From Saccharopolyspora montiporae (GTDB taxonomy: Bacteria > Actinomycetota > Actinomycetes > Mycobacteriales > Pseudonocardiaceae), in assembly GCF_015209505.1 (NCBI RefSeq), contig NZ_JADEYC010000005.1, positions 124,001-188,000 of the forward strand: 64,000 nucleotides of DNA, read 5' to 3'. Positions 42,728-46,575 of the stretch are shown here, piece by piece. Each line of letters opens with the position of its first letter. The stretch's first letter is position 1. A program made the translations under genes and the position numbers. Below the pieces are notes generated by a model that was not told where the DNA came from, made no database searches, and saw only the letters and a program-made list of their open reading frames with translations.

Positions 42728-42745
42728 CCGGCCCGGAGGGTGGCG

Positions 42746-43195
42746 ATGAGCGGAGCTCGCGAGGGGCTCGATGTGGCGCTCGCCGAAGCCCGGGCCGGGC
42801 TGGCTGAAGGCGGGGTCCCGATCGGTGCCGCGCTGCTCGGCCCGGCAGGTGAGGTGCTCGGCCGCGGGCACAACCGCCGGGTGCAGGACGGTGATCCCTC
42901 CGCGCACGCCGAGACCGCCGCGTTCCGCGCCGCGGGTAGGCAGCGCTCCTATGCGGACACGACCATGGTCACCACGTTGTCGCCGTGCTGGTACTGCAGC
43001 GGTCTGGTGCGCCAGTTCGGCATCGGCCGCGTGGTGATCGGCGAGGCCCGCACGTTCCACGGCGGGCACGACTGGCTCACCGAGCACGGCGTGCAGGTGC
43101 AGGTGCTGGACGACGCCGAGTGCGCGCGGATCATGCACGAGTTCGTCGCGGCCCGGCCGGAACTGTGGTTCGAGGACATCGGCCGCGCCCGGTGA
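42746..43195 (+). CDS. Cytosine deaminase (yeast Fcy1 type)
   Basis: 149-aa zinc deaminase. Metal and catalytic sites are SAHAETAAF (HAE, near 53) and TLSPCWYCSG (PCxxC, near 81). Unlike tRNA adenosine deaminases, it carries the yeast cytosine deaminase-like GVPIGAALLG, GRGHNRRVQDG and the C-terminal RPELWFEDIG, which matches the RPQDWFEDIG tail of Fcy1 as I recall it. It therefore most likely deaminates free cytosine to uracil for pyrimidine salvage. ATG with GGAGG 6 nt upstream. Confidence 0.82.
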   Translation: MSGAREGLDVALAEARAGLAEGGVPIGAALLGPAGEVLGRGHNRRVQDGDPSAHAETAAFRAAGRQRSYADTTMVTTLSPCWYCSGLVRQFGIGRVVIGEARTFHGGHDWLTEHGVQVQVLDDAECARIMHEFVAARPELWFEDIGRAR

Positions 43196-43204
43196 TTCCC
43201 GGGG

Positions 43205-43240
43205 GACGGCCCCGCGGCAGGGCGTCACCGCGGGACCGTC
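43205..43240. terminator. Hairpin between cytosine deaminase and SH3-like genes
   Basis: Arms 43205-43217 and 43228-43240 pair over 13 bp with a single C-A mismatch, loop of 10 nt. It lies between convergent genes and probably terminates both. Confidence 0.65.
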
Positions 43241-43252
43241 GACCGGACGTGA

Positions 43253-43612
43253 TCAGGTGGGGCAGACCGCGTCCGGGGTCTTCTTGAGCATGTCGTTGCG
43301 CACCCACCCCTCGACGTTCGTCTCGACGTCGCGCAGGTAGGTCCACTGGGTCGTGTAGCAGTGCAGGTCGACCCGGTGCGACTTCTGGCCCTGGCCGACC
43401 GCATCGCAGTTCGGGCCGCTGCGGATGTTGGTGAAGTCGTTCTTGAACAGCTTGGCGTACTTCGACTGGTCCTTGTCCGGCATCTTCCCGGTCTCGCACC
43501 CGGCGGCCGGTGCGGCAGTCGGCACCCGCTGCTCACCCGCTGCGATTCCGGGGGCCAATGTGGACAGTGCGATTCCGGCGGCCAAGGCCAGTCCGGCGGT
43601 CATCCTGCGCAT
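43253..43612 (-). CDS. Secreted SH3-like protein, paralogue 1
   Basis: 119-aa precursor with a signal peptide (MRRMTAGLALAAGIALSTLA, cleavage near AAG at 25-27). The mature part has the motif DQSKYAKLF, then NIRSGPNC, GQGQKSHRVDLHCY, WTYLRDVETNVEGWV and a C-terminal Cys: the pattern of a bacterial SH3 (SH3b) fold. Four Cys suggest two disulfides. The role is unknown; SH3b domains often bind cell-wall peptides. RBS GAGGAGAA precedes the ATG. Confidence 0.8.
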   Translation of the reverse strand: MRRMTAGLALAAGIALSTLAPGIAAGEQRVPTAAPAAGCETGKMPDKDQSKYAKLFKNDFTNIRSGPNCDAVGQGQKSHRVDLHCYTTQWTYLRDVETNVEGWVRNDMLKKTPDAVCPT

Positions 43613-43915
43613 GGTGTTCTCCTCGGTTGTGCTTGGGTTTGCGTGCGTTGCCCGTGGTCTCGTTCCCGCAGCGTTGATCGGGACTGGGTGGGCGACGTTC
43701 GGTCCGGGTGCGAGCCGATCCGCGGGGCCCGGACGCCACCCGGGGTTCGACCGGACGCGATCAGATGGGGCAGGTCGCGTCCTCGTGCGGGAGCTCGTCG
43801 AGCATGTCGTTGCGCACCCAGCCCTCGACGTTCGTCTCGGCGTTGCGCAGGTAGGTCCACTGGGTCGTGTAGCAGTGCAGGTCGACCCGGTGCGACTTCT
43901 GGCCCTGGCCGACCG
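43331..43915. repeat. 71-nt identical block in SH3-like paralogues 1 and 2
   Basis: 43331-43401 and 43845-43915 are identical base for base (offset 514), within otherwise diverged genes. It encodes the GQG-to-WTYLR core. Local perfect identity between diverged neighbours suggests gene conversion. Confidence 0.85.
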
Positions 43916-44126
43916 GCGTGCAGTTCGGCCCGTCGAGGATCAAGGTGGAGTTCTCCTTGAACAGCTTGGCGTACTTCGAGTGGTCCCTGTCCGGCATCTT
44001 CCGGGTATCGCAGCGGACGTCCGGTGCTCTCGCGGGTTCCTCCTGAACCGCAGTCGCGATACCGGGAGCCACTGTGGACACCGCGATCCCGGTGGCCAGG
44101 GCCAGTCCGGTGGTCATCCTGCGCAT
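43761..44126 (-). CDS. Secreted SH3-like protein, paralogue 2
   Basis: 121-aa precursor, MRRMTTGLALATGIAVSTVA signal peptide, then DHSKYAKLF, GPNC, GQGQKSHRVDLHCY, WTYLRNAETNVEGWV and a final Cys. The usual RSGP is changed to ILDGP, so the ligand-facing loop may differ. The central 71 nt are identical to paralogue 1. Four Cys are kept. The frame stays open upstream, but the signal peptide fixes the ATG at 44126. Confidence 0.8.
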   Translation of the reverse strand: MRRMTTGLALATGIAVSTVAPGIATAVQEEPARAPDVRCDTRKMPDRDHSKYAKLFKENSTLILDGPNCTPVGQGQKSHRVDLHCYTTQWTYLRNAETNVEGWVRNDMLDELPHEDATCPI

Positions 44127-44241
44127 GAGCGTTCTCCTGTCGTTCGGTTGCTCGCTCGGGTGTTGCTGATCCGGACGCCGTCGTCCCGCGCCTCCGGTGG
44201 TCGCGACACGGCGTGGTGCCGCGTGCCGCAAGGTATCCCGA

Positions 44242-44589
44242 TCAGCAGTGGACGTCGGACGTGTCCTTCAGATAGCCGTTGTTCACCCATCCCTCGACTC
44301 CGGTGGACAACCGCAGGTAGGTCCAGGTGCCGGCGGTGCAGTGCAGGTCGACCTTCTGCGACGTGACGCCCTGGCCGAGCGCCTTGCAGGTGGTGCTCGG
44401 GCCGCTGCGGACGTTGACGTGGTTCGTCCTGAACAGCTTGGCGTACTTCGAGTTGTCCTTGTCCGGCTCCGTCTTGGAGCAGTTCGGTGGCGGAGGAGGT
44501 GGGGCCGGTTCGCTGGCCGCGACTCCCGGAGCCACTGTGGACAGTGCGATTCCGGCGGCCAGGGCCAGTCCGGTGGTGAACTTGCGCAT
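44242..44589 (-). CDS. Secreted SH3-like protein, paralogue 3
   Basis: 115-aa precursor with a signal peptide (MRKFTTGLALAAGIALSTVA) and a short poly-Pro linker (APPPPPPNC). The mature domain has DNSKYAKLFRTNHVNVRSGP, then GQGVTSQKVDLHC, WTYLRLSTGVEGWVNNGYL and a C-terminal Cys. It is the most divergent of the three copies but keeps all four Cys and the VRSGP motif. It is the first gene of the array in the direction of transcription. Confidence 0.8.
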   Translation of the reverse strand: MRKFTTGLALAAGIALSTVAPGVAASEPAPPPPPPNCSKTEPDKDNSKYAKLFRTNHVNVRSGPSTTCKALGQGVTSQKVDLHCTAGTWTYLRLSTGVEGWVNNGYLKDTSDVHC

Positions 44590-45055
44590 GACGTGTCCTC
44601 TCTGGTGAACGGACCCGGTGCGGCACCGGGCCGTGCTGCTGCGCCCGGTGCGTGCCGGGCAGTGATCGAGCTCGGGACGTGCGCGAGAACCGGTATGCCC
44701 GAGCAGGCCGGTGCGCTCTGCGGCTCGGCCGCTGCGGACGGGCGGTGCCGTCCCGCGTCGAGGCGGGTGAGCGCGCGATGCCTGCCGACTGGTGCTGCGC
44801 ACGGTGAGTCCCCCAGTGCCGTTGCGGAAGCGGATCCGCGTCCGGTGTCCGACGCTCCGTCCTCGGGGAGCGACCACTCGGATCTTCCGGACCCGCACCT
44901 GGGGTGACCAGGTGTTTGCGCGGATCGGAAAACACCGCGCAGCCGATGCGCTGTTCGAGTGAAACATGGGTAAGTGGTTCGATCATCCATTAGCCCGTGG
45001 CATAGTGATCCCGGACCGGCCGCGCTGCGGTCGTCGGAGCACCACTGGGGGAACG
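44590..45055. other. 466-bp intergenic stretch between SH3-like array and ArsR-type gene
   Basis: Divergent region. It must hold the promoter of the SH3-like genes (ribosome binding site AGAGAGGA just before paralogue 3 on the minus strand) and, at its right end, a promoter for the regulator gene. No protein-like frame was recognised in between. Confidence 0.6.
44978..45006 (+). promoter_or_regulatory. Possible promoter of the ArsR-type regulator
   Basis: TTCGAT (44978-44983) and CATAGT (45001-45006) are 17 bp apart in an unusually AT-rich patch. This would start transcription near 45013, downstream of the ATG at 44966, and so supports the later translation start at 45056. Confidence 0.4.
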
Positions 45056-46090
45056 TTGGTACTTCGCATCCACTTCACCGGGCAGGACCTCGCGCGGACC
45101 CGGCTGCACCGCGACCCGCACCCGATGTGGGAACTGGTGCTGAGCCTGCACGTCCTGCAGTCGGGGTCACCGCTGAACCGCCACCAGCACTGGCTGCGCG
45201 CGGCGCGGCAACGCCTCGGCTCCGCCCCGCACGCGCGTGCCGACCTGCGGCTGCTGAGCACGCTGGTGCCGCCGGCCGGTGCGTTCCCGGACTTCCTCAC
45301 CCCGGTCGACGGGACGGGACCGTTCGAAGCGCAGCTCGACGACGTGCTGTCCACCCCGCGCCCGCGCCGGCACGCGGAACTGGGGCAGGTCTTCGGCGCG
45401 CAGCGCGCTCCGGCGTGGGTGGCGGCCTTCGCCGACGGGGAGCAGGGCGCCGCCCGCGCCGTGCGCATCGCGCTGCAGCGCTACCACGAACTCGTGCTGC
45501 GGCCGCACGCCGACGAGATCGCGCGGTGCGTGCTCGCGGAACGCGAAGCCCGGGTGCGCAGCCTGTGCACCGGCGGGGCAGAAGGCCTGCTCGCCAGCCT
45601 GCCCGGCTGCATGCGCTGGGAACCGCCGGTGCTGGTCGCCGACTACCCGGGTCCGGACCGGGACCTGCACCTGCGCGGGCGCGGGATCACCCTGATCCCC
45701 TCGTACTTCTGCCACGGCAAACCCGTCGGGTTCGTCGACGCCGAACTGCCGCCGGTGCTGGTCTACCCGGTCGGCGCCGATGTGGTCCCGGAACGCGCCG
45801 CCGTCGAGCTCGGTGTCCTCGTCGGGCCCACCCGGGCTCAGGTGCTGCGCGAGCTGCGCGCGACCCGGTCCACCTCGGAACTGGCGCGGCGCGTGGGGAT
45901 CTCGGTCGGGGCGGCCAGCAAGCACGCGGCCGTGCTGCGCAGCGCGGGACTCGTGCACAGCGTGCGGGAGCGCAACACCGTGCTGCACGGGCTCACCGGC
46001 CGCGGTGTGACCGTGGTGTCCGGCCATCCGCCCGCGGAGTCGCCGCTCGGTGAACTCCACCCGGGCGGCCTGGTGCCGTCGGCCGGGTGA
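45056..46090 (+). CDS. ArsR-type winged-helix transcriptional regulator
   Basis: 344-aa regulator. The N-terminal two thirds form a helical domain of unknown ligand typical of actinobacterial ArsR-like proteins (LRIHFTGQDLARTRLHRDPHP is the usual opening; PMWELVLSLHVLQ, SPLNRHQHWLR follow). The winged helix is near the C-terminus: STSELARRVGISVGAASKHA with the recognition helix, then VLRSAGLVHSVRERNTVLHG. The start is uncertain: TTG 45056 gives the family N-terminus, while ATG 44966 adds 30 residues. The target is unknown; the divergent SH3-like genes or downstream osmC are candidates. Confidence 0.78.
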   Translation: MVLRIHFTGQDLARTRLHRDPHPMWELVLSLHVLQSGSPLNRHQHWLRAARQRLGSAPHARADLRLLSTLVPPAGAFPDFLTPVDGTGPFEAQLDDVLSTPRPRRHAELGQVFGAQRAPAWVAAFADGEQGAARAVRIALQRYHELVLRPHADEIARCVLAEREARVRSLCTGGAEGLLASLPGCMRWEPPVLVADYPGPDRDLHLRGRGITLIPSYFCHGKPVGFVDAELPPVLVYPVGADVVPERAAVELGVLVGPTRAQVLRELRATRSTSELARRVGISVGAASKHAAVLRSAGLVHSVRERNTVLHGLTGRGVTVVSGHPPAESPLGELHPGGLVPSAG

Positions 46091-46161
46091 GCCGGGGAAC
46101 AAAAACGTTGCACCACTGGTTGCCCGGGTGTCCCAGGCACCCGAGAACCAGGCGGTGGCAG

Positions 46162-46575
46162 ATGTCGTCCACACCGATCGAAGTCGCCCGCACCGGCGAA
46201 CACACCTTCACCGCGACCAATCCGCGCGGCGCGCAGGTCGCCATCGGTAGGGACGGCGCACCGGGGGCTTTCACCCCGGGTGAGCTGCTGCTGGCGGCCA
46301 TCGCCGGATGCTCCGCCGTGACGAGCGAGAACCTGCTGGTCCGCCGGATCGGCGAGGACGCCCCGCTGCGGGTGCGCGCGGACCGCAGCACGGATCCGGC
46401 CGACCCGAACCGCTTCGCGTCCGTGCAGGTCACCTTCGACGTCGACCTGGACCAGGTGGATCCGGAGCAGCGCGTGAAGCTGTCCGAGGCCGTGCAGCGC
46501 GCCGTCGAACGGTCCTGCACGGTGAGCCGCTCGGTGGAATCCGGCACGCCGGTCGAACTGGAACCGCCGCGCTGA
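46162..46575 (+). CDS. OsmC family peroxiredoxin-like protein
   Basis: 137-aa OsmC/Ohr-type thiol peroxidase. The two redox Cys are in LLLAAIAGCSAVT (near 47) and ERSCTVSRSVESGTPVE (near 116). The domain is complete, IEVARTGEHTFTATNPRGAQ at the start. The ATG at 46162 is preceded by AGGCGGTGGCAG, a weak SD; the longer frame from 46087 is not OsmC-like. It probably detoxifies organic hydroperoxides. It follows the regulator by 71 bp and may be its target. Confidence 0.85.
   Translation: MSSTPIEVARTGEHTFTATNPRGAQVAIGRDGAPGAFTPGELLLAAIAGCSAVTSENLLVRRIGEDAPLRVRADRSTDPADPNRFASVQVTFDVDLDQVDPEQRVKLSEAVQRAVERSCTVSRSVESGTPVELEPPR

Follow-up and report, generated by a model that had tools for sequence, protein, structure and literature searches.

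Among the closest described systems are the wall-binding domains of fungal GH24/GH184 muramidases, in whose crystal structures Cys33 is bonded to Cys72 (PMC10394673). As reported in the same paper, Micrococcus cells, but not Avicel, removed the fungal domain from solution, and a complex with triglycine is described as well (PMC10394673). The fungal SH3-NlpC/P60 enzyme of a further report is, as far as the text of that paper goes, different from the proteins treated here (PMC12332128). The locus described in the following encodes a known fold in a little-described form, which has four cysteines, is predicted to be exported without an attached enzyme and is triplicated locally in one species, Saccharopolyspora montiporae.

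The locus lies in a stretch of 64,000 nucleotides, referred to as the window, and consists of these features:

42740..43195, plus strand: cytidine-deaminase-type gene, left border of the slot
43253..43612, minus strand: copy 1 (P0001), predicted exported SH3-like protein of 119 aa; SH3_3 E 0.0012, 19.5 bits, below cut-off
43331..43401, minus strand: 71-nt identical block, copy 1 side, exact match with copy 2
43761..44126, minus strand: copy 2 (P0002), predicted SH3-like protein of 121 aa with LDGP for RSGP; SH3_3 E 0.087, 13.5 bits, below cut-off
43845..43915, minus strand: 71-nt identical block, copy 2 side, exact match with copy 1
44242..44589, minus strand: copy 3 (P0003), predicted SH3-like protein of 115 aa; SH3_3 38.6 bits, cut-off 27
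44590..44965, between copy 3 and the regulator: divergent intergenic region of 376 bp, presumed control region
44966..46090, plus strand: ArsR-like winged-helix regulator of 374 aa, divergent from the triplet; HTH_20 and HTH_5 above cut-off
46087..46575, plus strand: right border gene of the slot, which we take to be OsmC-like; gene order kept among congeners

The sequence-only reading of this DNA had placed three neighbouring genes here, correctly as to position, and all three are on the minus strand. Its shared motifs SKYAKLF, GQG, VDLHC and VEGWV recur in all three copies, and each copy holds exactly the four cysteines it had counted (39/69/85/117 in copy 1, 39/69/85/119 in copy 2 and 37/68/84/115 in copy 3). 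The altered RSGP loop of copy 2 (LILDGP versus NIRSGP) was likewise borne out, as was the perfect 71-nt block, since the longest string common to copies 1 and 2 is exactly 71 nt. All three copies begin with a signal-peptide-like start, as judged crudely from hydropathy, and a GA-rich ribosome-binding-like site lies immediately upstream of each. Copy 2 shares 72% and copy 3 59% identity with copy 1. When copy 1 was searched against its own genome, copy 2 (E 4.6e-54) and copy 3 (E 5.6e-36) were found far below the next place (E 0.18), so that the likeness within the triplet is beyond chance; with copy 3 as query the other two were found at 1e-35 and 4e-30. The GC content is 0.67 in the triplet versus 0.72 in the window. 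One further SH3_3 protein is encoded in the same genome (G000:C51, L083 1573-1971; E 1.7e-6 with the wider profile), with a signal-like start and a score above the Pfam cut-off. As it is distant and has two cysteines only, it was rejected as a fourth copy.

An SH3-like fold and export, both claimed before, are supported by sequence and model and are thus predicted features. The cut-off of Pfam SH3_3 (PF08239, 27 bits) is passed by copy 3 (38.6 bits at full length, 39.5 for the mature part) and not reached by copies 1 and 2, whose kinship rests instead on identity within the triplet (72% between copies 1 and 2, 59% between copies 1 and 3). No family besides SH3_3 was above its own cut-off in the Pfam scan of the copies. 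Among 30 aligned family members, SH3_3 matches 13 and DUF4453 matches 11 at E 0.1 or better. In NCBIfam, copy 3 resembles SH3 wall-binding proteins below the cut-off (TIGR04211 E 2e-6, EntC E 1e-5), and copies 1 and 2 gave no match to such proteins. Searching PDB sequences with copy 3 alone returned three chains resembling bacterial SH3 domains (best E 0.028). Antibody chains in the PDB sequence searches (best E 0.012 with the profile, down to 0.001 with the Actinopolyspora relative) were taken as chance.

Structure prediction, which the sequence-only reading had proposed as a check, returned models that resemble an SH3 barrel. The AlphaFold models, built from the window sequences and those of named relatives, show five to six strands in an SH3-like arrangement for copies 2 and 3, with a mean pLDDT of 77.7 for copy 2 and 82.5 for copy 3 (five models, 59.0 to 82.5). 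Foldseek against the PDB found nothing at E 0.001 or better. The top rows of VIA-align include SH3b-bearing wall hydrolases and fungal wall-binding domains: for copy 3, 4krt (Z 8.4, rmsd 1.8, 63 aligned), 3npf (Z 8.2, rmsd 1.9) and 8b2g (Z 7.3, rmsd 1.7, 61 aligned, 25% identity). Similar rows were obtained for copy 2, SH3b domains scoring Z 7 to 8.7 across both copies, and eukaryotic SH3 and FUT8 rows come next (Z 5 to 6.6). Z values near 8 are also within reach of common barrels, and the fold call therefore stands on sequence and model jointly.

When we aligned eight family rows with three fungal domains, Cys3 and Cys4 of the family lined up with fungal Cys33 and Cys72, and all 11 rows have cysteine at both positions. 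The columns of fungal Cys9 and Cys53 hold other residues in all eight family rows, so the second fungal bridge is absent; the family has its own cysteines instead, one N-terminal and one after the RSGP-ST loop. A profile comparison of the family with the fungal domain was weaker, aligning only 36 columns at a probability of 74.

From their sequences, the relatives appear to form a family of exported single-domain four-cysteine SH3 proteins of Actinomycetota. The three window copies have the signal-like start and the exactly four mature cysteines by which we delimit it. When GTDB genome contigs were scanned with five relatives, there were 62 pattern hits, and 27 loci were confirmed, which belong to Streptomyces, Micromonospora, Actinopolyspora, Saccharothrix, Umezawaea, Actinosynnema, Actinokineospora, Actinacidiphila and MAGs; a scan with copy 3 alone found no loci. 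All 27 encode exactly four cysteines between the first family cysteine and the stop, a count in which four loci (L053, L066, L070, L071) are those of query rows, L076 and L077 do not differ in their mature proteins, near-copies account for several MAG rows and signal starts were judged by eye. With the three-copy profile, matches at E 1e-4 were found in at least 47 of 297 sampled genomes of the taxonomic family, its own included (39 of them single), and with the wider profile in at least 45 of 298 genomes of the order at E 1e-5. Within the genus, the profile search matched 4 of 22 genomes at E 0.01, namely its own and three congeners (E about 0.002, half length), and copy 3 alone found one match among 21 congeners, at E 3.5e-4 and with three internal stops. 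The earlier description of the proteins as expanded thus holds for the three copies here, which are without a good match in 21 congeners, but close pairs occur elsewhere too. Such same-strand family pairs were seen in other genera at G544:C1:7351304-7352187 and G445:C495:3966-4701. Among the literature matches listed, which leave most subscription journals uncovered, we recognised no description of a four-cysteine SH3 family.

Arguing by analogy, we favour, with a probability of about 0.55, the reading that the triplet encodes regulated, disulfide-pinned wall-peptide binders that were triplicated locally, with wall binding as their most likely work. Each gene would yield a small Sec-exported protein made of one bacterial SH3 barrel with two disulfides. 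Cys3-Cys4 would fasten the C-terminus to the strand that follows the RT/n-Src region, like in the fungal muramidase wall-binding domains, and Cys1-Cys2 would link the N-terminal arm with the side of the RT loop. Once exported, the protein would bind the peptide part of peptidoglycan, in the wall of its producer or of a neighbour, and would do so with no enzyme attached. Its production would be controlled by the adjacent regulator, which is the divergent ArsR-like protein here and would be a two-component pair or an AfsR/SARP-type regulator in relatives. The triplet would have come about through local duplication inside the slot that the deaminase and OsmC-like genes border, and conversion between the 3' parts of copies 1 and 2 would have followed.

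The triplet and the divergent ArsR-like regulator occupy this slot together, a setting that the sequence-only reading had overlooked. The 376-bp intergenic region contains seven short inverted repeats and no match to a sigma-70-type promoter. The three regions upstream of the copies have only short GC-rich words in common, and a tRNA search of the window found none. We compared the slot in stretches from nine of 21 congeners, and the order deaminase, OsmC-like gene, permease is kept in eight of the nine, the stretch of G006 being without the latter two. In four (G018, G001, G015, G010), the deaminase gene is directly followed by the OsmC-like one at a distance of 78 to 150 bp; three (G020, G013, G004) carry a distant transporter-like match between them, and G003 has a 1.4-kb gap. 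Across the congeners, the content of the slot (window positions 42740-46575; L112-L120) varies between nothing, a transporter-like gene and the islet described here.

The same regulator family is found divergent from single SH3 relatives in eight other genomes (L031, L042, L044, L045, L046/L068, L047, L067, L125). Next to the SH3 gene, Saccharothrix yanglingensis and G295 show short regulator matches (48 and 63 aa), perhaps remnants. When 39 regulators were placed in a tree, that of the window joined the regulators of three congeners (94/98, not a starred branch), which show no SH3 gene on the divergent side. The other SH3-adjacent regulators form a separate clade (99/94), which also holds L122, where no SH3 gene was seen on the divergent side. 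Mapped onto this tree, SH3 adjacency requires three changes, compared with an average of 8.2 in shuffles. Since regulators of the ArsR-like family occur in 50 of 120 genomes with one to five each, chance adjacency is unlikely for the other SH3-adjacent clade. The tree does not support the window regulator as an ortholog of the SH3-adjacent regulators in Actinosynnema-type genomes; it groups with those of the congeners instead. As the regulators of these congeners show no SH3 gene on the divergent side, the pairing is separate here and maybe fortuitous; either it arose at least twice, or it is a coincidence at this locus.

A regulator flanks the SH3 gene at 20 named loci out of 27, and at 18 of these it is a two-component pair or an AfsR-like regulator. 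Histidine kinase and response regulator are found in 11 loci (L054-L063, L073), where they form a cluster with the SH3 gene and mostly a MacB-type ABC transporter in Streptomyces and Micromonosporaceae; the permease is present in ten of the 11, and the contig of L054 ends just past the gene. AfsR/SARP-type NB-ARC regulators adjoin the SH3 gene in seven loci and ArsR-like ones in two, while seven have none of the three types; among these seven, L079 has HTH_31 and AraC-type neighbours. The contig of L064 ends just after the SH3 gene. Domain tests covered one representative each of the kinase and AfsR/SARP types and two ArsR-like regulators, of which the one from Umezawaea shows an HTH match below cut-off only. 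Across 61 genomes of the genus Micromonospora, the kinase (E 1e-80) occurs in six and an SH3 relative (E 1e-8) in 20, the two being adjacent in one. The two-component link to the SH3 gene is lineage-bound.

These neighbourhoods bear on an alternative in which the SH3 protein serves outside the cell in signalling or as an accessory to a sensor; by binding wall fragments or a receptor it would act back on the adjacent regulator, rather than on the wall. Three unrelated regulator types next to family members would fit such a role, as would the MacB-type permeases of the kinase loci and, at L055, the one locus tested, a neighbour with a peptidoglycan-binding domain (PG_binding_1). The ArsR-like regulator, however, has only DNA-binding domains in Pfam and is presumably cytoplasmic, and the kinase pairing is sparse in Micromonospora. 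We regard this alternative as unlikely, although it is the likeliest of the rival readings.

ArsR-like regulators of this family also stand divergent from other exported proteins. At L131, L132, L134, L135, L137 and L138 these carry a WCGPGS motif (those of L131 and L134, the two tested, match Peptidase_C39_2), at L148, with its look-alike L150, it is an FG-GAP protein, and at L127 a protein with a beta-propeller match below cut-off. Counted by eye with a crude rule, 13 of 31 divergent regions carry an ORF with a signal or transmembrane segment, versus 62 of 239 background ORFs; the 13 include a transporter, two cytoplasmic-looking ORFs, the SH3 locus L125 and near-copies. Against this background, the case for the family as a general partner of exoproteins is weak. 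It is doubtful, if conceivable, that a class of one-component winged-helix regulators of actinobacteria is repeatedly paired divergently with exchangeable exported proteins (four-cysteine SH3, C39-peptidase-like, FG-GAP and perhaps propeller-like), with the SH3 protein as the wall-reading member, an exported binder of wall peptides whose gene joined up with regulators of the ArsR-like, AfsR/SARP-like and two-component types on separate occasions.

The array itself was claimed to be still evolving by conversion between copies 1 and 2. What stood is a past event in the 3' part, but ongoing change cannot be read from one genome. The break-point scan places a change at residue 71 of copy 1 (permutation p 0.001), with informative sites of 25 versus 34 before the break and 40 versus 6 after it. 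Over the first three fifths or so of the gene, the distance between copies 1 and 2 is almost as great as that of either to copy 3; beyond it, windows of 72 nt show 1 to 10 differences between copies 1 and 2 versus 17 to 26 between copies 1 and 3. The 3' parts of copies 1 and 2 form a mosaic as conversion would leave it, and this reading is supported; varying constraint along the gene keeps some probability as an alternative. The 71-nt run exceeds site shuffles (P 5e-5) and codon shuffles (P 2e-4), and Fisher tests on the block gave p 1e-4 for nucleotides and 0.04 to 0.05 for amino acids, for a block picked after the fact; the break-point permutation allows for this choice. When only identical codons at conserved residues were counted, the run in copies 1 and 2 gave P 0.14, and the block was rejected as proof of conversion on this account. 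The same test is not specific for conversion, because copies 1 and 3, for which conversion is not proposed, gave P 0.002. In the mature-domain tree, copies 1 and 2 are firm sisters (99/94), and all three copies group together with 84% bootstrap, a value that is not settled, and SH-aLRT 0, a weak sign of a single origin of the triplet.

For the mature parts, the Nei-Gojobori method puts dN above dS in each of the three pairs. Diversifying selection was nevertheless rejected as an artefact of codon bias, as the excess disappeared in codon models (F3x4), where the mature parts gave omega 0.10 to 0.40 and the full genes 0.27 to 0.44; with window frequencies, the mature pair 1-2 is not distinguishable from omega 1 (p 0.07). 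Still less likely than a signalling role are competition antagonists, that is, the effectors or decoys of the sequence-only reading, which would cover the peptidoglycan of rivals or of the producer and so keep hydrolases away or bring them in. Small, exported proteins with one wall-binding-type domain would suit this task, and their patchy distribution in the taxonomic family, local amplification and the loop change specific to copy 2 are in agreement with it, but no other Pfam family scores above its cut-off, the models corrected for codon bias show no sign of positive selection, and tblastn of copy 3 in 50,697 phage records found no match. The least probable view, that the triplet is a relic of an acquired and duplicated gene without current function, could appeal to the missing good match in 21 congeners, the lower GC and the scores of copies 1 and 2 under the Pfam cut-off, but reading frames, start sites, signal-like starts and four cysteines are intact in all three copies, and omega stays at 0.1 to 0.44.

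If the wall-peptide binder that we favour is correct, the actinobacterial exoproteome would gain an SH3 wall binder that is pinned by disulfides and carries no enzyme, and the conserved cysteine signature would link the family structurally to the fungal wall-binding module. The family would also offer small, readily purified domains with which to ask what peptidoglycan peptides are recognised by SH3 folds, with regulator neighbourhoods that make a role in wall stress directly testable.

Compared with known systems, the proteins differ from Pfam SH3_3 (PF08239) in the four-cysteine pattern and the N-terminal arm, which lie outside the extent of the Pfam match. They share the predicted barrel with the SH3b domains of NlpC/P60 endopeptidases (6biq, 3h41), which in contrast are parts of hydrolases, and likewise with that of lysostaphin, reported as part of a hydrolase (PMC10394673). 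The stand-alone SH3 protein of the Drexlerviridae lysis module (DUF7244) is also described as one SH3 domain without an enzyme, but it is a phage lysis gene, and the terms disulfide and signal peptide are absent from the main text of that paper (PMC13164509); the Pfam scan of the copies at E 10 had no DUF7244 line. The wall-binding domain of fungal GH24/GH184 muramidases shares, as described, an RS(G/S)P start and, by prediction, the SH3 barrel and a pair of disulfides with the window proteins, Cys33-Cys72 corresponding to the Cys3-Cys4 bond predicted here (PMC10394673). Unlike them it has Cys9-Cys53, whereas Cys1 and Cys2 are new in the bacterial family, and it is joined to a muramidase, while the window proteins are bacterial, single-domain and 115 to 121 aa long.
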